The position numbers were made by a program, and so were the translations under genes. From a virus, in the IMG/VR virus record IMGVR_UViG_3300025110_000134, positions 1-23,417 of that record: DNA of 23,417 nucleotides, one strand, 5' to 3'. Each line of letters starts with the position of its first letter. The stretch's first letter is position 1. Shown in pieces: positions 1,379 through 18,861 of this stretch. The notes under the pieces are model-generated. The model was not told the origin of the DNA. It saw only the letters and a program-made list of their open reading frames with translations, and ran no database searches.

Positions 1379-2528
1379 TAGGTGAAGCAGTATTGCTAAT
1401 ATTAACGGTTCCATCTGGGGTTGGCAGAGAGCCACTGCCTAGACTATAAGCCAAATCTGTCACAGGATCAGGCTGATTGCATGGGGTCTGACCATAGAAC
1501 GCTATCTTCTGACCTGTAGCTGTCCCTATCTTTGTCCCTGTGCTTGTATTCGCTGCAATATTTACTGCATCACCAAGAGTTAAAAGATTAGCGTCAATTG
1601 ATAGCTGAGTCGTTAAGGTTCCATCATCCATTACTTTGAAATTTATTTCTCCATCTTCTGTCGCGTCAGAGGCATCAATTATTTTTGCTTCTATAGATGC
1701 ATAATCAATTTGCTCAGGTGTCCCGGCGTCGTTCTTACCTCTGAAGAAAATAGTTGAAAGCAAATCATTATCCTGTCCTGCACCTGATGCGCCCCGTCTA
1801 GAAAATAAAGTTATATCGCTAGTTGATCCTGCATCGTTAGCACTACATTCAATCCATAAAGCTGGGCCTGCACTAGCTGTTGTTATATGTAATGGATATA
1901 AAGGTGTTGCTTCATGAACTCCAACTTTGTCGGCTGATAATCTTATTCTGCTGGCTAATGTCCCACTAGCTGACGACATTAAATCAAGTATTCCATCTTC
2001 TGCGCCATTAGTTACGGTTTTAATTGAAGAAGTAATGGAAGCATAATCATGAGCATTGCCACCTGAATCCTCACCTCTTAAAACAATATTTCCTAAGTTG
2101 TCAGCATTAGCAGGGCTAGCAGAATTTCTATATAGAACGAGGTCGGGTGCTGTATCCGCACCTGCATCACTGTTTTCTAGAATAATTTGGTCAGTCGTGT
2201 CCGTACTAAACAAATGAAGTTGAGCCGCTGGAGTTCCTGCGCCTAATTGCAATCCACTTGATTGAAATGAACCTACAAGAGTTTGGTTAATAGAAACAGA
2301 AAGAGTATTAGCGGCTGATCTATAAAGACCCGTTGCACCACTGTCAGCCGTCCAACCTAAAGAAGGCGTTGCAGCACTTCCACTAGGCATAGCCCGAAGG
2401 AGTGTTGTGTACTGGATCTTTTTGTTTTTAGCAGAGTTTGATGACTCGCTAGAGTCAATGATCTGAACAATATCATCTGCAACAGGTGCAGTTAGTTCAG
2501 TCAGTGCCGTGATCTTTCGATCAGCCAT
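1284..2528 (-). CDS. Tail fibre-like protein with internal duplication (414 aa)
   Basis: This is the second, shorter adsorption-type protein. The N-terminus (MADRKITALTELTAPVADD) is of a kind often found at the start of marine phage fibre proteins and probably joins it to the tail. Residues about 45-100 form a beta-rich segment with a GLYRSAANTLS motif. Two related blocks follow, at about 98-206 and 207-325. Each carries LH(L/I), a central (I/F)(V/F)(L/F)RG(E/K) with a following DYASI, and an (A/T)EDG(I/E) motif. The end has GQKIAFYGQTP, a linker, and a terminal helix (LLAYCVEIEAKLELVLSRLR) that could trimerise the fibre. The start lies 3 bases after the stop of the 61-residue gene. Fibre identity is based on composition, repeat architecture and position; the receptor is unknown. 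Confidence 0.85.
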   Translation of the reverse strand: MADRKITALTELTAPVADDIVQIIDSSESSNSAKNKKIQYTTLLRAMPSGSAATPSLGWTADSGATGLYRSAANTLSVSINQTLVGSFQSSGLQLGAGTPAAQLHLFSTDTTDQIILENSDAGADTAPDLVLYRNSASPANADNLGNIVLRGEDSGGNAHDYASITSSIKTVTNGAEDGILDLMSSASGTLASRIRLSADKVGVHEATPLYPLHITTASAGPALWIECSANDAGSTSDITLFSRRGASGAGQDNDLLSTIFFRGKNDAGTPEQIDYASIEAKIIDASDATEDGEINFKVMDDGTLTTQLSIDANLLTLGDAVNIAANTSTGTKIGTATGQKIAFYGQTPCNQPDPVTDLAYSLGSGSLPTPDGTVNISNTASPTNDELLAYCVEIEAKLELVLSRLRATGLIGT

Positions 2529-2989: not shown

Positions 2990-5479
2990 TTAGCCCCCTT
3001 CTAGGGCTGTAACTTTTACGGATAACTCTTTAATTGCATTAATAAGAATAGGTACTAATTTCGAATATTGCATTCCATAATTTCCTTCAGGGTTTATATG
3101 ACTAATAAGCATATTATCTTCTGTATCTCCATAACCATGCTCTTTTTCTACTTCTAGTTCTTCTTGCGCAATTAAACCTACATTCAATTGAGAAGCTTTT
3201 TTGCTTCCATCAGGGGTTCCATCTTCGTAATTGCTTCTCATATCCCATCTATAGGTTACAGGATTTAATTTATTAATCCAAGATAATCCATGAGTAAAAG
3301 GTTCTATATCTGTTTTATCTCTTCTATCTGATGTGACAGTCCAATCTACTTTAATATAGGCGTCAGAAATGTTATTTTCACCTAAACAAATTCTATTAGC
3401 ATGATTGCTAAGAGTTCCTGATGGTGAATTTGATCTTCCTGCATCATTACCTAACACAAGATTATTTAATCCAGTTGTAATATTATATCCAGCCGAGTTA
3501 CCTACAGCCGTATTAGAATTTGCTGTTTGTAAATTATATAATGCAAATGGACCAACCGCCACACTTCCCTCTGCGGTTGTAGCGCTTATACCTGAATCTT
3601 TACCGATAAATACATTATTTTGACCTGTTGTGCATGAAGCACCTGATCCTTCTCCAATAGCAGTATTATTATCCCCTGTTGTTACTGCGTATAAAGAACT
3701 AGAACCTAGACCTACATTATAATCTCCAGTAGTGATTCCTGAACCAGAAAAATATCCTATTAAAGTATTAGTATGTCCTTCAGTTATTGCATCCCCAGCT
3801 CGGGAACCCATAACGGTATTTCTATAACCTGTAGTATTTGCAGCTAATGCATCATAACCAAATGCTGCATTGTCACTCGCAGTTGTATTTGCACCTAATG
3901 CTCCTCCACCTACTGCAGTATTATAATCTCCTGTGGTATTTGCATCTAAAGCATAAGAACCAACAACAGTGTTATAAGTTCCAGTTGTATTTGCATACAG
4001 TGCCTGGTTACCTATCCCAGTATTAGCATTCGCAGTTGTATTTGAATATAATGATTCTCTTCCAATTCCTGTATTATATTGACCTGTTGTGTTTCCAGCT
4101 AATGCTGAATAACCAAAAGCAGAATTAGGTGAACCTGTTGTATTTGCAGTTAAAGCATTCCTACCTACAGCAGTATTATTATCTGCTGTGGTGTTCGCAT
4201 CCAGAGCACCACGTCCTATAGCTATATTATTTTCTCCTTCAGTATTTGCTAATAAAGCTCCCTCACCCACCGCAACGTTATTTTGGCCTGTTGTGGTTGC
4301 ATTTGCTGCGTTATATCCTATAGCAGTATTATTATGCGTTGTACAAGCTGATAAAGAAAAGTGTCCTATAGCAACATTAGAAGCACCTGTTACTGTTGCA
4401 TCTAATGCTCCTGTACCTACTGCTATATTGCCTGACGCTGTAGTGTTTAAACCCAATGCATCTCTACCAATTGCAACGTTATAATTTCCAGTCGTGTTTG
4501 CATCAAGCGCACCTTTTCCGCAGGCCGTATTACCAGCTCCGGTAGTATTTGAACCCAATGCATCTTTACCTACAGCAGTTAAATTAGAACCAGTAGTGTT
4601 TGAACCTGCGGAAGACTTACCAATGGCAGTATTCGTAGTTCCGGTAGTATTGTAAAACAGTGAAGACCTACCAACAGCAGTATTTTCAGCGCCGGTATTT
4701 GTTTTTAACGCACCCGAACCAACCGCAGTTGATTCATCTGCAGTTGTGTTTGTAGATAAAGCTTGATAACCAATTGCCGTGTTTTCAGTTCCAGTAGTGT
4801 TTGCGTCTAAAGCGTATGAACCGACTATAGTGTTCGCCGCACCTGTAGTTATAGCGTTTCCCGCAGAAAAACCTATAGCAATATTATCCGCTGCTCCATT
4901 ACATACTTCTAATGCTGTATGACCTATAGCTACGTTTCTTGAATCATCATCCGAAGTCGTTAAAGCATAAGCTCCGATAGCTATGTTATACCCGCCGGTC
5001 GTTAAAGCGTCGCCTGCTGCGTAGCCCAGTGCACAATTCGAAGCGCCCGTTGTGAGGGCCGCAAAAGCTTGACCTCCCACCCCAGTATTCGCAGCGCCTG
5101 AAGTACAAGCTGTTAAAACGTTTTTACCAATAGCTGTATTATTTTGACCTGTAACTGCAGCATCTAAAGCAGTCTCACCAACAACAGTATTTCCAGCAAC
5201 AGAGTTAGCACCTTTACCAACAATAACGCTATTTATTACTGCATCTTCGCTCATCGTCATGCCGCCATCAAGCTGCCTTAACTCAATCCATCCGTTATTT
5301 GCAGCATTCCTCATCTTGAGCAATGCGTTTCCAGTGTCGGCCCAGAGCATATAAGCAAACGTCGTTGACGGTTCTGATCCGTTGCTATTCAAACTGACAA
5401 CTGCTGATAAACAGTTATTTAAATCTGTTCTGAAACTTGAGCCTGATTGATTGGCTAAATTATAATCATGAGTTGCCAT
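2990..5479 (-). CDS. Large repeat-built tail fibre with S74 self-cleaving chaperone (829 aa)
   Basis: Three parts are visible. Residues 1-85 are a fibre N-terminus typical of marine phages (ANQSGSSFRTDLNN, EPSTTFAYMLWADTG). Residues 97-672 are about 34 tandem 17-residue repeats with consensus NTAIGxxALxANTTGxx, likely a beta-helix or beta-roll shaft like the YadA/haemagglutinin head. Residues 717-829 match the Peptidase_S74 intramolecular chaperone: SDRRDKTDI, GLSWINKLNPVTYRWD, LNVGLIAQEELE and a C-terminal coiled coil. In that family the chaperone trimerises the fibre, then cuts itself off just before the Ser of the SDRR motif, so the mature fibre should end near residue 716. The gene follows gpJ, the usual place for side or tip fibres. 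The ATG at 5479 lacks a clear Shine-Dalgarno sequence. Identification is strong; the receptor is unknown. Confidence 0.93.
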   Translation of the reverse strand: MATHDYNLANQSGSSFRTDLNNCLSAVVSLNSNGSEPSTTFAYMLWADTGNALLKMRNAANNGWIELRQLDGGMTMSEDAVINSVIVGKGANSVAGNTVVGETALDAAVTGQNNTAIGKNVLTACTSGAANTGVGGQAFAALTTGASNCALGYAAGDALTTGGYNIAIGAYALTTSDDDSRNVAIGHTALEVCNGAADNIAIGFSAGNAITTGAANTIVGSYALDANTTGTENTAIGYQALSTNTTADESTAVGSGALKTNTGAENTAVGRSSLFYNTTGTTNTAIGKSSAGSNTTGSNLTAVGKDALGSNTTGAGNTACGKGALDANTTGNYNVAIGRDALGLNTTASGNIAVGTGALDATVTGASNVAIGHFSLSACTTHNNTAIGYNAANATTTGQNNVAVGEGALLANTEGENNIAIGRGALDANTTADNNTAVGRNALTANTTGSPNSAFGYSALAGNTTGQYNTGIGRESLYSNTTANANTGIGNQALYANTTGTYNTVVGSYALDANTTGDYNTAVGGGALGANTTASDNAAFGYDALAANTTGYRNTVMGSRAGDAITEGHTNTLIGYFSGSGITTGDYNVGLGSSSLYAVTTGDNNTAIGEGSGASCTTGQNNVFIGKDSGISATTAEGSVAVGPFALYNLQTANSNTAVGNSAGYNITTGLNNLVLGNDAGRSNSPSGTLSNHANRICLGENNISDAYIKVDWTVTSDRRDKTDIEPFTHGLSWINKLNPVTYRWDMRSNYEDGTPDGSKKASQLNVGLIAQEELEVEKEHGYGDTEDNMLISHINPEGNYGMQYSKLVPILINAIKELSVKVTALEGG
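3464..5191 (-). repeat. About 34 tandem 51-bp coding repeats in the fibre shaft
   Basis: The fibre shaft is encoded by consecutive units of 51 bases (17 residues). Two units are 16 residues long: STAVGSGALKTNTGAE, and one ending ACTTHN. A partial 35th unit starts NLVLGNDAGR. Nearly every unit keeps N-x-x-(I/V/L)-G at positions 1-5 and usually T-(T/E)-G at 13-15; the surface positions vary. Copies have diverged at DNA level, so this is an old repeat array. The few units with Cys (for example NCALG and NTACG) are interesting outliers. Confidence 0.9.
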
Positions 5480-10286: not shown

Positions 10287-10620
10287 AGTAGGCGCTAAAT
10301 GGTTCTATGCGGGATAACGAGTTCCTTTTTTGATGCAAAATTCTTTCGTTTGGTAAGAGAATCGCTGCGTGCATTGGGGTCTTAGTACCAATACGCATTA
10401 ACAGGACATCATTTGGTAAGCGCTCATTAAGTGGAATTTCTATAAATCCTTTTTTAGGAAGTTGATCTAAAAAAATACTTTCACAAGTTTCTAATTTCAA
10501 CGGTCTTATATATTCAGGCAATTGTATTCCTAAGAGTTGGTAATAATTTTTTAATAAGGAATAGCAATCTGTTGTGCCATAGTCCCATTCAAGCCCAACT
10601 AAGGATTGATAATTAACCAT
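10231..10620 (-). CDS. NlpC/P60 domain protein, C-terminal half of gpK (129 aa)
   Basis: This is a cysteine peptidase-fold protein expected to cut peptidoglycan peptides or serve in tail-tip assembly. The NlpC/P60 signature is visible: TTDCYSLLKNYY with the catalytic Cys at C19, MHAAILL with H84, and a possible third polar residue at H96 in RILHQ. In lambda, gpK carries an N-terminal JAMM domain and a C-terminal NlpC/P60 domain in one chain; here the two are separate genes in different frames overlapping by 22 bases. The ATG at 10620 is preceded by only a weak AGAAGA. Overlaps on both sides suggest translational coupling. The length equals a minimal NlpC/P60 domain, so nothing seems truncated. 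Confidence 0.88.
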   Translation of the reverse strand: MVNYQSLVGLEWDYGTTDCYSLLKNYYQLLGIQLPEYIRPLKLETCESIFLDQLPKKGFIEIPLNERLPNDVLLMRIGTKTPMHAAILLPNERILHQKRNSLSRIEPFSAYYVKRTEAIFRYAAGNTPR

Positions 10621-10907
10621 TTATCTTCTGGTATTAGATAAATATGCCACGGGATTTTAGTACGAGCACAAGCTTGTTTGTCAGCAGGACTTGCTGGCCC
10701 TCCTTTTGGATGGGAGTGAACAATTGCCTCTATCTTCCCATTCTGTCGTGCTTTTATATAGTCTCTAGGTTCAAGGATAAAATCATTATCTGGTTTGTCA
10801 GCCATATTTCTACAGGGCCAATATTTACCCTTTACTACAACACCACAAGCTTCTTTAGGTGTATCTTTTAAAGCGTGTTCTTTTGCCTTACATCTGAAGT
10901 CTTGCAC
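10599..10907 (-). CDS. JAMM/Mov34 metallopeptidase, N-terminal half of gpK (102 aa)
   Basis: The JAMM zinc-peptidase residues are present: E19 in TPKEACGVVV, H64 and H66 in IVHSHP, S73 and D76 in SPADKQAC. The fold corresponds to the N-terminal domain of lambda gpK. I place the start at GTG 10907. The frame remains open upstream to 11000, but that part is antigenically meaningless overlap with the gpL-like coding region, whereas GGAGG sits 8 bases before the GTG and the family's homology begins just after it. The gene overlaps the gpL-like gene by 20 bases and the NlpC/P60 gene by 22. Its role is presumably tail-tip maturation together with the NlpC/P60 partner; the substrate is not known from sequence. 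Confidence 0.87.
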   Translation of the reverse strand: MQDFRCKAKEHALKDTPKEACGVVVKGKYWPCRNMADKPDNDFILEPRDYIKARQNGKIEAIVHSHPKGGPASPADKQACARTKIPWHIYLIPEDKWLIINP

Positions 10908-11913
10908 TTGGGAATCCTCCAAAAGGCAAATCAGTGTTGCCTGGAAATTTAGCAGCACAATCTGAATATTTATGTCCACAAGTTGAATCTGATCCTGCAT
11001 AAGTGCATTCAGTCCCTCTAAATATCCAAGGACAATGTTCTAAAACTTGACGACGAGGGAGACGTACATTTAACAGGTCCATCTTTGTAGACAATTCAAA
11101 TTGAACAGCGTTTATAGTTTCAGATACAACTCGATCTATATACCAAGTATCATCACCTTCAGCGATTGCCGTAGGATCGGCTGTTGTATTTGTACCGCTT
11201 GTAAAATTAACAGCATCTAAGAATTTTTTAAAAGTAGTTATTCTGACGATCTTTGCATTTAATGGATTATAAGCAGTCATTAAAGCAGATATGACACTGT
11301 TAGCATTAGCGATTGTAAAAGTTGGCCTTGGTAATGTTCCTGTTGTTGATCTTTTAAATCCAGTCATTTCGCAAGGCACAGCACTATATGTAATCGAGTT
11401 GAAAACTATGTCTCCATGTATTTCATTTGTACCTGAGTGGTAGTAATAAATAGTGTCTGTTCCGTTAACAGCCAAGGTCATATGTAATTGGAATAATTCA
11501 ATAACTGCTGATGGTTCGAGTAATTGAATTTGTTCTTGAACTGTATTAGGTACGGCTGCTGTTGTGAAAGTGTATGCAAGGGCATCGTCTGTATTGATTT
11601 TGCTTTCAATGCCTGCATATGATTCCCCAGCAGCATTATCAAAAGCTGTTGCATCAATGAAGACGTAATATTGAGTAGACGCTAATAAATCACTACTAGG
11701 ATTAACAGTAATAGTAGTTGTACCCGTTCCTGTAACTTGTCCGCTAGTTACATCAATAGTCTCTACAACAGAATCATCTGCATATTTATAAATAACAATA
11801 TTGCCGGTTTCTCTATCAACTGCTTCTGAAAAAACAAGAACAATATTAGAATTTGTTGCTACGTTTCTTGCTGTGGTAGCAGGTGTTGAACTTGATAAAG
11901 TTGGTGCGGTCAT
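10888..11913 (-). CDS. gpL-like minor tail protein with N-terminal Ig-like domain (341 aa)
   Basis: Residues about 122-341 match the lambda gpL family: VQEQIQLLEPSAVIELFQL, a core with VPCEMTGFKRSTTGTLPRP, and the C-terminal Cys module. The cysteines are C294, C303, C312 and C319, spaced as in the gpL family, where this module binds an iron-sulphur cluster; it ends in LPFGGFP. Residues 1-120 are an added Ig-like domain of the SbsA/Big_5 type (SSSTPATTARNVATNSNIVL, VFSEAVD, LLASTQYYVFIDATAF). Lambda gpL is 232 residues and lacks this part. Such domains commonly bind carbohydrate or decorate virions. The ATG overlaps the gpM-like stop (ATGA). gpL helps build the tail tip between gpM and gpJ. 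Confidence 0.9.
   Translation of the reverse strand: MTAPTLSSSTPATTARNVATNSNIVLVFSEAVDRETGNIVIYKYADDSVVETIDVTSGQVTGTGTTTITVNPSSDLLASTQYYVFIDATAFDNAAGESYAGIESKINTDDALAYTFTTAAVPNTVQEQIQLLEPSAVIELFQLHMTLAVNGTDTIYYYHSGTNEIHGDIVFNSITYSAVPCEMTGFKRSTTGTLPRPTFTIANANSVISALMTAYNPLNAKIVRITTFKKFLDAVNFTSGTNTTADPTAIAEGDDTWYIDRVVSETINAVQFELSTKMDLLNVRLPRRQVLEHCPWIFRGTECTYAGSDSTCGHKYSDCAAKFPGNTDLPFGGFPSARLQM
10916..10920 (-). promoter_or_regulatory. Strong Shine-Dalgarno setting the GTG start of the JAMM gene
   Basis: GGAGG on the minus strand lies 8 bases before GTG 10907, inside the last codons of the gpL-like gene. Most genes in this window have weak or no Shine-Dalgarno sequences, so this one is a good guide to the true start. 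Confidence 0.75.
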
Positions 11914-12254: not shown

Positions 12255-13982
12255 TTAGGTATATAGAAGGCCTCCGGGCATACGCTCTTTAACTAATTGC
12301 TTTTGTATTGCTGCGGCTATAGATTCTCCTAACTGTTTTGCTTCTCCACCATTAGCATTAACGTTTGATTCTGTTGCGTTAACACTCACATTTATATTTG
12401 TTGCCCCACCTATTTTATGGTTAGGTGTAATGTTTCCGCTTGATCGAGGTGTAAAGATTTCAGGCCCGCGCTCACCAACTACATAAGGGCTTCCACCTCT
12501 AACAGGGCCACCCGCAGCCATACCTGGAAGCGCGTAAGGAATACCCTTCCATCCAGAATTTCCACCTTTAAACATATTGCCGAACATTCCCGCTAATGGG
12601 CCTGTAATTGATTGCTGTATTTGAATACGAACCATATCAGCAATAATGCTATCGGCTAAAGACTTGAAATCCAGCTCCCCGGTAGTGATAAAGGAAACAA
12701 GAGCATCCTCCATTCCTTTTATTCCTTTTATTACTACGTCCGCCATCATTTCACCTGACGACTTTAAAGAGTCATTAAAAGACTTTAATTTTGATTGCAT
12801 TTGAGTGCCAAACGTTTTATCTAATTGCGTTTCTAATGCAGCGGCTTTTTCTGTTCCTTTTTGGTAATAATCTTCACCCGCTTCTGATTCACCAGAAATA
12901 AGCTTATTTAATTGTGGAATATTAGATTGAAACCTTGCTTTTGCTTCATCTACATAATCATCACCTAAAATTGCTCTTAAATTTTCTTTCTGTTGAGTTG
13001 TAAATCTAGTTCCAAGATCCTTAGCAATATTTACTCCACCACCTAATAATTTCTTTACCCATTCAGGGGTTAGCCTATCTACTGTCTCCATCATTTGTTT
13101 AACTCTATTTATTATCGTTTCGCCAAGTTTTCCTATTTCTTGGAATAATTTAGCAACACCAAAAACAGTTACAGCTATACCTCTAATAGCTCCCTCTACA
13201 AAATTAAAGAATCCAGACCAATCATTATCACTACCTAGAATGTCTCTAAAGACTTCAGTAATTGCATTTAAAGCTGGTAACAACGCATCAGAAAGTTGTT
13301 TTCTAAATCCATCAAAACCAAAACTTAGCATTGTTAATTGATCATTGAAATATTCAGCATTAGCCGCAAAGCCTTCACTTGTTTCATAGTTCCATTTATT
13401 TAAAGCATCACTTCCTTCATTCAACATTGGTATTAATTGCGCCCCTGATCGACCAAATATCTCCATTGCTAAAGCCGCCTTTGTTGCCCCGTTTGGCATA
13501 TCTCGAAAACGATCAGCAATATTTCCTAGTAGAACTTCAGAAGTCTTTAAGGTCCCGTCAGCATTTCTAACGCTAATACCTAAAGCCTCATAAGACTCTG
13601 AATAAGTTTTTATTCCTTGGTCAGCTTCCCTTTGTGATTGAGCTAAACGTCTTAAGCCTTTTTCTATAGTTGCTTGTTCAACACCTGCTAATTTTCCAGC
13701 GTTTACATAAGCTTGTAATTCATCAGCAGCTATTCCAGTTTGTCTGCTTAGTTTTCCAAAAGCATCGGCTTGATCTATCGCACCTTTAACAACTCTAGTA
13801 AAAGCGCCCGCCGTCAGAATCAAGGCCATTGCCTTAAACGCTGTATTAACGCTTAACGCTGCCATCCGAACATTTTTTAATCTTCCTTGTAATCCCTGCA
13901 TGGAATTACCCATGCGTTTTAAACCAGCTTGCCCCTTAGTCTTAAGAGACAGCAGCATATCAAATTTTGCACCTTTAGCCAT
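12255..13982 (-). CDS. Tail tape measure protein (575 aa)
   Basis: The protein sets tail length and is later ejected into the host. The N-terminal third is helical (KRMGNSMQGLQGRLKNVRM, SRQTGIAADELQAYVNAGKL), with hydrophobic patches near 45-65 and 265-285. The C-terminal part is of the lambda/HK97 tape-measure type, with VGERGPEIFTP near 509 and a final helix. At roughly 0.15 nm per residue the tail would be about 85 nm, shorter than lambda's (lambda gpH is 853 residues). It starts directly after the T-frame stop (TAAATG). No lysozyme or peptidase insertion is visible. Identity is secure from both sequence and position after the G/GT pair. Confidence 0.93.
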   Translation of the reverse strand: MAKGAKFDMLLSLKTKGQAGLKRMGNSMQGLQGRLKNVRMAALSVNTAFKAMALILTAGAFTRVVKGAIDQADAFGKLSRQTGIAADELQAYVNAGKLAGVEQATIEKGLRRLAQSQREADQGIKTYSESYEALGISVRNADGTLKTSEVLLGNIADRFRDMPNGATKAALAMEIFGRSGAQLIPMLNEGSDALNKWNYETSEGFAANAEYFNDQLTMLSFGFDGFRKQLSDALLPALNAITEVFRDILGSDNDWSGFFNFVEGAIRGIAVTVFGVAKLFQEIGKLGETIINRVKQMMETVDRLTPEWVKKLLGGGVNIAKDLGTRFTTQQKENLRAILGDDYVDEAKARFQSNIPQLNKLISGESEAGEDYYQKGTEKAAALETQLDKTFGTQMQSKLKSFNDSLKSSGEMMADVVIKGIKGMEDALVSFITTGELDFKSLADSIIADMVRIQIQQSITGPLAGMFGNMFKGGNSGWKGIPYALPGMAAGGPVRGGSPYVVGERGPEIFTPRSSGNITPNHKIGGATNINVSVNATESNVNANGGEAKQLGESIAAAIQKQLVKERMPGGLLYT

Positions 13983-14650
13983 TTATTTCTTCTCCTTATT
14001 AAGAAGTTCCATTACCGTAATCTCTAATAATTGAAGATCTTCAAACACTTCAGAAAGATTCGGTATTTCTAATAGTCTACCAACACTTAATACGTCTGAG
14101 TAGCAAAGGCCTGTTAATGTTCCAAGTCCCCCTACTCTCCATTGCGTCTGAATACGTAAAAACCAATTTATAACTTCCCAATTTTCTTCCCACACTTCAA
14201 AATCTTTCTCTGGTTCTTGCTCAGGTAAAACAATACCTAAAACTTTTGCATCTTCTTGCGTCTCATCAATTACGCCGCCTTTACAAAAATACTCAGCGGC
14301 GTCTATTAGTTTTTTCTTTTTGCTCCCGCAATGCTGTCAAAAAATGCTGTTGCTATAGCTGTTGCTACTAAAGGAACATCAACCAATTGACTTAACGCAA
14401 CCTTGGAAAATTTAACAGGATTCCCATCATCATCGTCTATTCCATCCCAACCAATTAAAACTTCATTTACTACATCAACATCGTTTAAATCCCCCGCCTC
14501 TATCAGTTGCCCCATCTCTCTAACTCTAGATTGGGTAATGCGTCTAAATTCACCATCAAAAGTATGTCTTTGATGCTTCCCACCATCTACAGGAATATCT
14601 ATAGATACAGGCCATTTATAAGTATTGGATTGCTTTAGGACAAAAGACAT
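13983..14650 (-). CDS. Tail assembly chaperone GT, -1 frameshift product (222 aa)
   Basis: This is the frameshifted partner of the G-like chaperone. Reading shifts by -1 at A_AAA_AAC (14309-14315), just before the G stop, and continues through LIDAAEYFCKGGVIDETQED to the TAA at 13983-13985, adding 108 residues to the 114 of G. The T part carries VWEENWEVINWFLRIQTQWR and FEDLQLLEITVMELLN, which match the DUF1799 tail protein family. The T frame has no ATG; its only nearby start-like codon is a GTG at 14195, far inside the domain, so the full domain is made only through the shift. In lambda, G and GT coat the tape measure during tube polymerisation. Homology, site and hairpin all agree. Confidence 0.87.
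14272..14315 (-). promoter_or_regulatory. Programmed -1 frameshift signal: slippery heptamer, spacer and hairpin
   Basis: The slippery heptamer AAAAAAC (14309-14315) is in phase A_AAA_AAC with the G frame and is followed directly by the G stop TAA. After a 6-base spacer (14303-14308) comes ACGCCGC at 14296-14302, which pairs perfectly with GCGGCGT at 14272-14278 across a 17-base loop; a further U-G pair can close it to 8 bp. These are all elements of a classical -1 signal. Confidence 0.88.
14306..14650 (-). CDS. Tail assembly chaperone G-like protein (114 aa)
   Basis: The zero-frame product of the chaperone pair. It has a basic/beta N-terminal part (WPVSIDIPVDGG, HTFDGEFRRITQSRVREMG), a middle GWDGIDDDDGNPVKF block and a C-terminal helix ending AGAKRKN. 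This matches the general layout of phage tail chaperones that precede the tape measure: a short beta segment then helices. It sits between the tube protein and the T segment. Most ribosomes should stop here, giving more G than GT. The ATG at 14650 has an AT-rich leader and no strong Shine-Dalgarno. Confidence 0.86.
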   Translation of the reverse strand: MSFVLKQSNTYKWPVSIDIPVDGGKHQRHTFDGEFRRITQSRVREMGQLIEAGDLNDVDVVNEVLIGWDGIDDDDGNPVKFSKVALSQLVDVPLVATAIATAFFDSIAGAKRKN

Positions 14651-14705: not shown

Positions 14706-15638
14706 TTAAGTATATGCAATTGATAGTTCGTTATTGCCTGCTGTTGTAGGTGTTGCCACGAATGGGAGGTTTAACATTTGTACGCCGTCTGAATCTTCAT
14801 AAGTTGGCTGCCCTAAGTCAGTTTGTGGACAACTAAGAGTTACCTTGTTACCAGCAGTCGTTCCGTGTAAAAAAGTGTTAGTCCCAGTACTTGACCCTGT
14901 TGCATCTGTAAAAAAGTTATGAGCCGATAAAGCTACCGCTTCTACACTTGCGCTCCCAGATGGCGCCCTGTTAGTTATCATCACTTCTTTAGTGCCACCT
15001 ACTAATTCTCTATAAACTGTGTCGTTATTCATGTCAAGTGACCATGATTGTAAAACGCCTCCATATCCAAACAAAGCAAAAGCAGAAGTATTGCCATTCT
15101 TAAATAATAAAGGCTTAGTAGCGTTAAAGGTTGGGGCTGGCACTGCCTGATCTGTTGGAGCGTTATAAATCCCGGTCATAGAAAATGAAATTACAGGGAT
15201 CTCGTTAACACTGCAATTAATCGAGAATGTACCCCTGCAACCTGTGACCTTATGTCTAACCCCGTCGATATTGCAGTAAATGCAACATGAACTAAAAGAA
15301 GTACTAACAGGAGCGTAAGTATTGCTAGTTGAACTTACTGTTGTGACGGCTAAACCGCAGCTTTTTAAAAGCGGAGCATAGGCAGGTTCGTCACCGGCTG
15401 TGCCACTTCCTACCATTTCCACGTCCGCCGTCACGTTGACTCTTGTGTTGGCTAAAAGGGTTTCATATACGCCGAGATAAGGCCTAATTAGATCCCTGCT
15501 TACTTCGTCAGACTGGACAGGTTCGATCGTTAAATCTCTTACTAAAATTCCATTACTTCCAGCCGTAGGGGTGGGATCTGTCCCATAACTTGATTCCAGT
15601 TTGCAGAGTAGCGTTCTCTTCCTAGTTAGCTTTGGCAC
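14706..15638 (-). CDS. Major tail tube protein (310 aa)
   Basis: Beta-rich protein that polymerises into the tail tube around the tape measure. The opening (LTRKRTLLCKLESSYGTDPT then IEPVQSDEVSRDLIRPYLG) and the internal CRGTFSINCSVNEIPVISF are typical of the tail tube family seen in many siphoviruses. It is larger than lambda gpV (246) but within the family range. Several cysteines cluster at about 118-155 (SSCCIYCN, GCRG, NCS), which is unusual for a tube subunit. The start is a GTG at 15638; an in-frame stop lies a few codons upstream and no ATG fits. It follows the gpU-like gene and precedes the chaperone pair, the standard order. Confidence 0.88.
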   Translation of the reverse strand: MPKLTRKRTLLCKLESSYGTDPTPTAGSNGILVRDLTIEPVQSDEVSRDLIRPYLGVYETLLANTRVNVTADVEMVGSGTAGDEPAYAPLLKSCGLAVTTVSSTSNTYAPVSTSFSSCCIYCNIDGVRHKVTGCRGTFSINCSVNEIPVISFSMTGIYNAPTDQAVPAPTFNATKPLLFKNGNTSAFALFGYGGVLQSWSLDMNNDTVYRELVGGTKEVMITNRAPSGSASVEAVALSAHNFFTDATGSSTGTNTFLHGTTAGNKVTLSCPQTDLGQPTYEDSDGVQMLNLPFVATPTTAGNNELSIAYT

Positions 15639-17016: not shown

Positions 17017-18861
17017 TTATGCCCCTAGACAGAAGCTTGCTGGATGCTTAACAGCAACGTCAACATCTTGTAAGACTCTTACCCTTACGTTTCCAGAAGC
17101 GCCGCCTGTATAAGGATCTACTTGAAGGTCGAGCCCTGACCAATAACCAAGGATAAATTCCGAAAAATTCCCGAACCAGATGTCACCGGATTCGACTTGA
17201 TTAGAGACGTAAAGTGGATAACCGTTGACGACTCCATCTTCATTAACAAAGCGACCAGAACCAGAATCTTTAGTCTTAACTTTCATCGCTCCAGCAATGT
17301 TGGCTCTAGTTACATAAGCAAGAGAACCAGTTAAAGCGTTAGCAACAGAAATATCAGATTCCATGTTGACTACATCAGCAAAACTAGGATCGTTGTTGCC
17401 AACGTTTTCAGTTGCGATACCTGTGACATTGTGAAGGCCAAGCGGTTCGCTGGAACTTCCTAACCCATAGAGAGCAGCGCGGTCTATTTCAAGAGCTAAA
17501 GTCTGAGCAAGTGAATTTCTTACAAGGGATTCAACATCTAAAGAAGATTGAATAAGAAGCTTGCGAGAAATATCTGTCATGGCCCCTATGGTTTTGGGAC
17601 TCATATTTACTTGTTCAATACTTATATCGCTCTCAGTTACGTTTGAACCTTCGCCAATCCAATATGCGGTTTGACTCGATCCTTGGCGCGGAATTGAGAT
17701 ATTACCTGTGAGGCCGGTCAAGATTGTCGATCCGGTCTGGGCCAACACTGACGAATTGCGGAGCAATGAAATAAAATCAGAGCTAAGCTGTGTTGAAATC
17801 AGATTACCTCCCGCTGTATCTGGAGTCGTCTGCTGATCCCTTTTGAAAACTTCATTAGGGATTGTTATGCCTCTTGATGCTCTGCCAAGTTTTTGTGCGG
17901 CGGCTTCAGAAGCTTCTATTTCAAAAGCAGCGGCTTCACGCTTTGCAGCGCTACCGGGATTAGCAAGATAGTCAATTGCTTTAAGAACTGACCAACCGCG
18001 TGTTTCAGTTTGACTTAAACCAATGTTGGCTTCATCAACTTTTGGGGCAACCGCTTCCGGCTTCCACTCACGCAAAACAGCAGCATTAAATTCATCAACG
18101 CTACGCTCGTCTTTAATATATTGCTCGCCTAATTCGCTAAGGTTGTACTTAGTGGCAACAGTTTGAATCTCTTGGATTCTGGAACGCTCGGCTTTGATCA
18201 CCTTTTGGGTGTCAACTTCTGAACGCACCTCCAATGTTTCTTTAGGAGTTGTGGTCATTTGAACTTGGGTAGATTTGGACGGTGCTTCAGTTGAAGCGGA
18301 GTCGTTAATACGCTCTGATAGTATATTATCCGATTCCTGCGTAGTAACAGCAGCTCTATTAATACCAATACTATTATCAGCCGGAATAGCAACGACTGAA
18401 ACCTCGTAAGCTTCCCAACTGGTCGCTACCTGATCATCCCCCCGCTGTTCCATTTCCTTAATTACATAGCCAAAACTAATATTTCTAATGATCCCGTTTT
18501 TAATGTCTCTATATATAGATGATGCAAATTCTTCCTCGCTAAAACGGACTTGTGCATAACCTCGCTTTTTCTTCTCATCAATCCAAGCCCTTTCTACAAC
18601 TCCAATTACGCCTGCGCTAGGGTCATGGTTCCAAAGGACAGGCGCACCGTCATTGAGCCTTGTTAAGTCTGCGCTTTTCTCTCTATGTTCTAAGACCTCA
18701 TTACCAAAATAACGAGCTACAGATTGTTCTGAACTAAAAGGGAACTCAAGCGTGCGGTCTTCTTTTTCTACCTCCCTAACTTCTAATTTAAAATCACGTT
18801 GAACTAAGTTCTGTTCTAGGTCACGTTCCATTTTCTTCTGTAGTGTTACTAGATGTTTCAT
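17017..18861 (-). CDS. Prohead protease fused to HK97-fold major capsid protein (614 aa)
   Basis: A single chain contains the three capsid functions. Residues about 22-172 are an S78/U35-type prohead protease: H79 in VLWNHDPSAG, S129 in RNISFGY, and the YEVSVVAIPADNSIGI block with E153. Residues about 200-335 are helical and charged, like the delta/scaffold domain. Residues about 340-614 are the HK97-fold capsid (NEVFKRDQQTTPDTAGGNLI, NISIPRQGSSQTAYWIGEGS, ALEIDRAALYGLG, PYTGGASGNVRVRVLQDVDV). Self-cleavage would release mature capsid. The ATG at 18861 overlaps the portal gene by 41 bases. ATG 18831, with AGAAGAAA upstream, is an alternative that still keeps the whole protease. Such fusions are known but less common than separate genes. 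Confidence 0.93.
   Translation of the reverse strand: MKHLVTLQKKMERDLEQNLVQRDFKLEVREVEKEDRTLEFPFSSEQSVARYFGNEVLEHREKSADLTRLNDGAPVLWNHDPSAGVIGVVERAWIDEKKKRGYAQVRFSEEEFASSIYRDIKNGIIRNISFGYVIKEMEQRGDDQVATSWEAYEVSVVAIPADNSIGINRAAVTTQESDNILSERINDSASTEAPSKSTQVQMTTTPKETLEVRSEVDTQKVIKAERSRIQEIQTVATKYNLSELGEQYIKDERSVDEFNAAVLREWKPEAVAPKVDEANIGLSQTETRGWSVLKAIDYLANPGSAAKREAAAFEIEASEAAAQKLGRASRGITIPNEVFKRDQQTTPDTAGGNLISTQLSSDFISLLRNSSVLAQTGSTILTGLTGNISIPRQGSSQTAYWIGEGSNVTESDISIEQVNMSPKTIGAMTDISRKLLIQSSLDVESLVRNSLAQTLALEIDRAALYGLGSSSEPLGLHNVTGIATENVGNNDPSFADVVNMESDISVANALTGSLAYVTRANIAGAMKVKTKDSGSGRFVNEDGVVNGYPLYVSNQVESGDIWFGNFSEFILGYWSGLDLQVDPYTGGASGNVRVRVLQDVDVAVKHPASFCLGA

Follow-up and report, generated by a model that had tools for sequence, protein, structure and literature searches.

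Programmed -1 frameshifting as the probable source of a G/GT pair of tail assembly chaperones in an environmental phage and its DUF1799-encoding relatives

Introduction

How does a phage translate a conserved tail domain whose reading frame opens at the very end of another gene and offers no start codon until 38 codons further on? The question is raised by a 23,417-base IMG/VR virus record, a single metagenomic contig that may be incomplete, analyzed here over its whole length (hereinafter the window; GC = 40%), the minus strand of which carries a head-tail gene cluster. The answer that we favor, with a probability of about 0.95 on the evidence of sequence comparison, is that a programmed -1 ribosomal frameshift would let a single start serve for a pair of tail assembly chaperones. 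G/GT frameshifting of this type is classical in tailed phages (PMC5009743), and the same reading had been put forward in an initial annotation of the window; the domains, the gene order, the conserved phase of a slippery heptamer and the constraint on the -1 frame all support it.

Gene Context of the Tail Chaperone Locus

The genes at the locus are as follows:

12255..13982, minus strand: tape measure protein (Tape_meas_lam_C, E 5.8e-21)
13983..14309, minus strand: T, the -1 frame from the slip, 108 codons and a stop (PF08809, DUF1799; E 1.1e-11, 45 bits, cut-off 26)
14306..14650, minus strand: G, the zero-frame tail assembly chaperone, 114 aa (PF08748, Phage_TAC_4; E 1.2e-5, 26 bits, cut-off 21.1; phrog_569)
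14706..15638, minus strand: tail tube-like protein, 5' of G (PHROG 290, annotated as minor tail protein; E 9.6e-38)

Both domain scores exceed the curated cut-offs, and the PHROG matches of the G/T region are to tail families. G and T sit between the tail tube-like gene and the tape measure gene, the latter directly after T; G and GT are expected to have the tape measure protein as their partner, and T the PHROG 290 tail tube-like protein, the latter only by position and synteny. Taken together, the homology of G, a startless T in the -1 frame, a conserved in-phase heptamer and the gene position are those of the G/GT chaperones of tailed phages. By sequence, GT matched no solved structure, the best hit (CheY, E 0.38) being at chance level, and a search across the window for Rfam families and tRNAs found neither.

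Elsewhere on the minus strand, one 614-aa ORF (17017-18861) fuses a prohead protease (Peptidase_S78) to the major capsid protein (Phage_capsid); an 829-aa protein (2990-5479), with many short NTTG-type repeats and a C-terminal Peptidase_S74 self-cleaving chaperone domain, is likely a tail fibre; and minor tail protein L (10888-11913) bears an N-terminal Big_5 Ig-like domain. The listed ATG start of a Prok-JAB ORF (10599-11000) gives an overlap of more than 100 bases with the upstream L gene, and its true start is probably internal, near the end of L.

The Slip Site and Its Conservation

On the minus strand the 3' end of G reads GCA AAA AGA AAA AAC TAA, within and beyond which we place the following:

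14309..14315, minus strand: slippery heptamer AAAAAAC, its first base at codon position 3, hence A_AAA_AAC in the G frame
14306..14308, minus strand: zero-frame stop TAA, read from the sequence, abutting the heptamer as in 81 of the 84 distinct loci surveyed
14193..14195, minus strand: GTG, the first ATG/GTG/TTG of the T frame, 38 codons past the slip, which starts an artefactual 70-aa ORF

The open -1 frame spans 108 codons, from 14309 down to 13986 with its stop at 13983-13985, and the fusion of G and T would comprise 222 aa. The initial annotation had described A_AAA_AAC in the correct phase just before the TAA, a 108-codon open frame with a DUF1799-like T domain, a 222-residue fusion and a 70-residue T fragment reported by gene callers; the coordinates, the codon phase, the codon count, the PF08809 score above its cut-off and both product lengths agree with that description. 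The last stop of the -1 frame ahead of the slip lies only about 9 codons upstream, so that the transition between the frames is confined to that short stretch. G contains one more in-phase heptamer, TTTAAAC at about codon 54, which was considered and rejected, as -1-frame stops intervene between it and T.

A search of a phage collection with the fused GT protein returned whole-length, two-frame matches to the Synechococcus phages S-CBS1, S-CBS3 and S-LBS1, at 31-37% identity to the GT of the window. An alignment of the T domain, which is blind to the heptamer, recovered hundreds of relatives when used to scan viral contigs, and 80 loci were brought in by this route; terminase relatives contributed further loci. 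A single G sequence, used as the query against viral contigs, found no relatives, and a scan of genome contigs gave only three matches, all distant. The survey comprises 100 related loci with the T domain, 84 of them distinct; one locus (L013) begins inside T and so has no upstream DNA.

An alignment of related phages had been named in the initial annotation as a check, and an in-phase heptamer stands at the end of G in every surveyed locus that holds upstream DNA. Among the 84 distinct copies the heptamer is AAAAAAC in 79 and GGGAAAC in 5, all in phase; by name, AAAAAAC directly precedes the G stop in S-CBS1, S-CBS3, S-LBS1, VarioGold, SG01 and HK639, and GGGAAAC does so in SYP and phiAH14a. 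These exchanges preserve the tandem-slip (two-tRNA) rule. Elsewhere in the related G genes an in-phase X_XXY_YYZ is found at just 15 of 2638 positions, and against this background its presence at one position in all related loci with upstream DNA excludes a chance origin. The codon before the heptamer encodes a variable residue (R, A, E, T, I or S), yet its last base is always the one that the heptamer requires, where about 29% would be expected from the codon usage of the locus itself, the source of all such expectations below.

Farther out, the tandem heptamer is not universal, since the distant T1-like relatives Klebsiella phage SegesCirculi (L126; AAAAGTC TAA) and Escherichia phage phiEB49 (L127; AAAGGTC TAA) are without X_XXY_YYZ. 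In both (bases 795-804) T is still at -1 and the zero-frame stop abuts, and the frame change there may perhaps proceed by a single-tRNA slip on A_AAA or A_AAG. A contig of Thioalkalivibrio sp. ALJ24 (L122) carries A_AAA_AAC before a DUF1799-like T at position 2965, with a zero-frame stop that lies 21 bases on and does not abut.

Signals Flanking the Heptamer

Three further elements were placed around the heptamer and its stop:

14323..14327, minus strand: Shine-Dalgarno (SD)-like GGGAG, ending 7 nt 5' of the heptamer (from the sequence and synonymous shuffles; missing from the initial annotation)
14296..14302, minus strand: 5' arm of a hairpin, ACGCCGC, 6 nt 3' of the heptamer (RNA fold and synonymous-codon shuffles)
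14272..14278, minus strand: 3' arm of the hairpin, GCGGCGT (RNA fold and synonymous-codon shuffles)

In L014, L105 and L121 the stop lies one codon further on instead of abutting the heptamer (3/84). In 43 of 44 clusters (52% expected), leucine after the slip is encoded in the T frame by CTR, the choice that permits an abutting stop; the two control leucines in T are CTR in 9 of 20 CTN codons. With clustering at 70% identity, CTR after the slip and the abutting stop are kept in 25 of 26 clusters, where about half would be expected. So strict a choice suggests selection acting on the abutting stop itself. In all these comparisons the relatives are not independent, and clustering at 80% and 70% identity lessens but does not abolish the effect of kinship.

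The hairpin had been described as a 7-bp GC stem with a 17-base loop, set off from the heptamer by a 6-base spacer. Its arms and spacing (spacer TAATAG) match the sequence as well as the minimum-free-energy fold of the 60 bases after the heptamer (-15 kcal/mol), in which a single U-G pair and a small inner helix add to the 7-bp stem. As the arms pair in several registers (GGC repeats), shuffles of synonymous codons were used in place of a per-pair count of covariation. By this measure the hairpin of the window has a z of -3.7 (-2.6 against dinucleotide shuffles), the median over the 84 loci is -2.0, and pooling over 26 divergent clusters (70% nucleotide identity) gives a z of -7.5, with 0 of 500 synonymous shuffles reaching the observed value. 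In a scan along G and T a single segment is exceptional, with a mean z of -1.67, and it begins 4 bases after entry into the -1 frame; at every other position the mean z is -0.5 or higher. Hence, the downstream hairpin is under selection beyond coding need. The stems vary in sequence between relatives yet begin at nearly one position, the arms being GCCGCTGTAGAGC/GTTCTATAGCGGC in S-LBS1, CGCTGTTA/TAACAGCG in locus L085 and GGCGGCT/GGCCGCC in locus L035. A minority of relatives (L008, L028, L075, L102 and L120) have a weak or no hairpin in the synonymous-shuffle test.

Upstream, the Gly codon at the SD-like position is GGA in 20 of the 29 clusters that have Gly there, as against 16% expected, and anti-SD pairing around that spacing is clearly above synonymous shuffles (2 of 500 reach the observed value when pooled over 26 clusters), so that here too selection goes beyond coding. 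The element is mainly confined to the broader clade of the window and is absent from several distant relatives. We checked the initiation distance from GGGAG for ATG, GTG or TTG and found none; action as a 5' stimulator is, therefore, the simplest reading of GGGAG, and probably the correct one. The literature, which was covered in part, yielded no description of an SD-like element in tail chaperones.

Alternative Explanations for the Expression of T

The best-surviving alternative, though very improbable, is that T is a separate gene with an initiation of its own, either at GTG 14195 or at a non-standard codon; ribosomes that have terminated on G might reinitiate there, with GGGAG as the ribosome-binding site. 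Gene callers annotate T in this way in S-CBS1, S-CBS3, S-LBS1 and others, and an SD-like GGGAG does precede the stop of G; however, it has no start codon within initiation distance, and the first T-frame start in relatives is not fixed but falls anywhere from 3 to 62 codons past the slip. Moreover, a start at GTG 14195 would lose about 37 residues that are conserved as protein: over the 37 codons from the slip to the first start, a comparison of the window with 16 relatives shows changes distributed 112:76:250 over codon positions 1:2:3 of the -1 frame, which places this stretch under protein constraint in that frame. This constraint, along with the variable first start, makes separate initiation unlikely, and a separate gene would also leave unexplained an invariant heptamer preceded by a variable residue. 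That T lacks a proper start, as the initial annotation had it, is thus borne out by both the lateness of the first start and its unconserved position. Related phages with separated G and T frames and a conserved start for T were named by that annotation as speaking against frameshifting; neither feature was seen across the related loci with upstream DNA.

Less probable still is a fusion arising through transcriptional slippage on the A run. The site does contain an A6 run, but six As are short beside the runs of 9 that a review cites for bacterial slippage (PMC5009743), and slippage by RNA polymerase would depend neither on codon phase nor on a hairpin 6-8 nt away. What makes slippage by the polymerase unlikely is that GGGAAAC replaces the A run in five related loci, keeping the two-tRNA rule with no long run. 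Finally, the notion that an intact in-frame GT gene was broken, or split by an indel from sequencing or assembly error, draws on the window being a single contig from a possibly incomplete record and has a negligible probability, refuted as it is by relatives that repeat the frame relation and heptamer in about 100 contigs and isolate genomes and in two microbial genome contigs (L123 and L124).

Comparison with Known Frameshift Sites

The dnaX cassette of E. coli combines an SD-like element, an A_AAA_AAG heptamer and a downstream stem, with the stop in the -1 frame. The window has in common with it the SD-like element, A_AAA_AA and the downstream stem, but ends its heptamer in AAC, has its stop in the zero frame and belongs to an unrelated gene; of the dnaX-type features, an internal SD and a hairpin a few nt downstream are found at the site, and the A_AAA_AAG heptamer is not. 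Judging from these parts, the site would work like that of dnaX but is not one. The SD spacing of dnaX is roughly 10 nt, and the shorter 7 nt at GGGAG counts against the frameshift reading. So does the relative weakness of the heptamer, for A_AAA_AAC shifts less strongly than A_AAA_AAG in E. coli, which may not be the host (PMC5009743).

The mechanism of the programmed frameshift is already known in many tailed phages, and the site is well conserved. In lambda gpG/gpGT and the wider tailed-phage class (Xu, Hendrix and Duda 2004, via PMC5009743), G and T overlap at -1 before the tape measure gene, with a slippery heptamer near the end of G, as in the window; there the fusion is needed in a small amount. 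The lambda heptamer is G_GGA_AAG, whereas the window has A_AAA_AAC with a directly abutting stop. The initial annotation was, therefore, right in setting the heptamer apart from that of lambda, but the type itself had already been published for phiCbK, Loki and HCTV-2 (the last in PMC5009743). The excerpts at hand on Burkholderia phage KL1 gp18/gp19 (PMC3483164) give an X_XXY_YYC heptamer (GGGAAAC) abutting the zero-frame stop and a predicted downstream stem-loop, like the window, and, unlike it, a further tail gene that separates T from the tape measure gene; they describe no SD-like element. From similarly partial texts, Acinetobacter phage Loki gp12/gp13 has AAAAAAC adjoining the stop (PMC5313236), and AAAAAAC in Caulobacter phage phiCbK gp93/gp94 as against GGGAAAC in Colossus (PMC3556154) parallels the swap among the relatives of the window; those portions report no stimulators for Loki, phiCbK or Colossus, unlike the window. 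According to the review, some tailed phages apparently do without stimulators (PMC5009743), in contrast to the conserved hairpin and SD-like element of the window's family. In an assay, two frameshift genes from a tail chaperone cluster of HK97-like type gave 6-7% (PMC3711429).

Closer to the window, S-CBS1 (HM480106), S-CBS3 (GU936715) and S-LBS1 (MG271909) possess homologous G and T, A_AAA_AAC followed by TGA and a hairpin 5-6 nt on, while their GenBank records annotate two separate genes and no frameshift. The failure of gene callers that had been predicted is thus seen in isolated relatives, as separate or truncated T genes. In S-LBS1 (L003) an antisense hypothetical gene (1842-2015, minus strand) is annotated over the G/T junction and T is truncated to 47 aa; the antisense gene is probably an artefact that arose because the frameshift was missed in annotation. 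In the part of the literature covered we found no paper linking either DUF1799 or S-CBS1 with frameshifting.

Conclusions

Briefly, we infer the following mechanism. Most ribosomes would complete G and terminate at the TAA. In a minority, the Lys-tRNA on AAA and the Asn-tRNA on AAC would slip back one base on A_AAA_AAC, and these ribosomes would go on to translate the T domain in the -1 frame, giving GT (222 residues). If the parallel with lambda holds, the tape measure protein would be coated by many G and a few GT, with T recruiting the tail tube subunit. The G:GT ratio is probably set by GGGAG 7 nt upstream, the abutting stop and the GC stem 6 nt downstream. A more speculative and rather doubtful extension is that in this family the abutting stop is itself a working part of the signal: its slow termination while it occupies the A site would drive slippage jointly with the hairpin and the SD-like contact, which would tie this ratio to release factor activity.

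What is new here is how widely and strictly the heptamer is conserved across the DUF1799 family, together with evidence that probable stimulators are under selection. This family of tail chaperones bears a selected hairpin, SD-like element and abutting stop, in contrast to some shift sites of tailed phages, which reportedly have no stimulators. For annotation, the result means that a large group of environmental phages, in which T is now missed, truncated or hidden under a spurious antisense gene, can be treated by a uniform rule.
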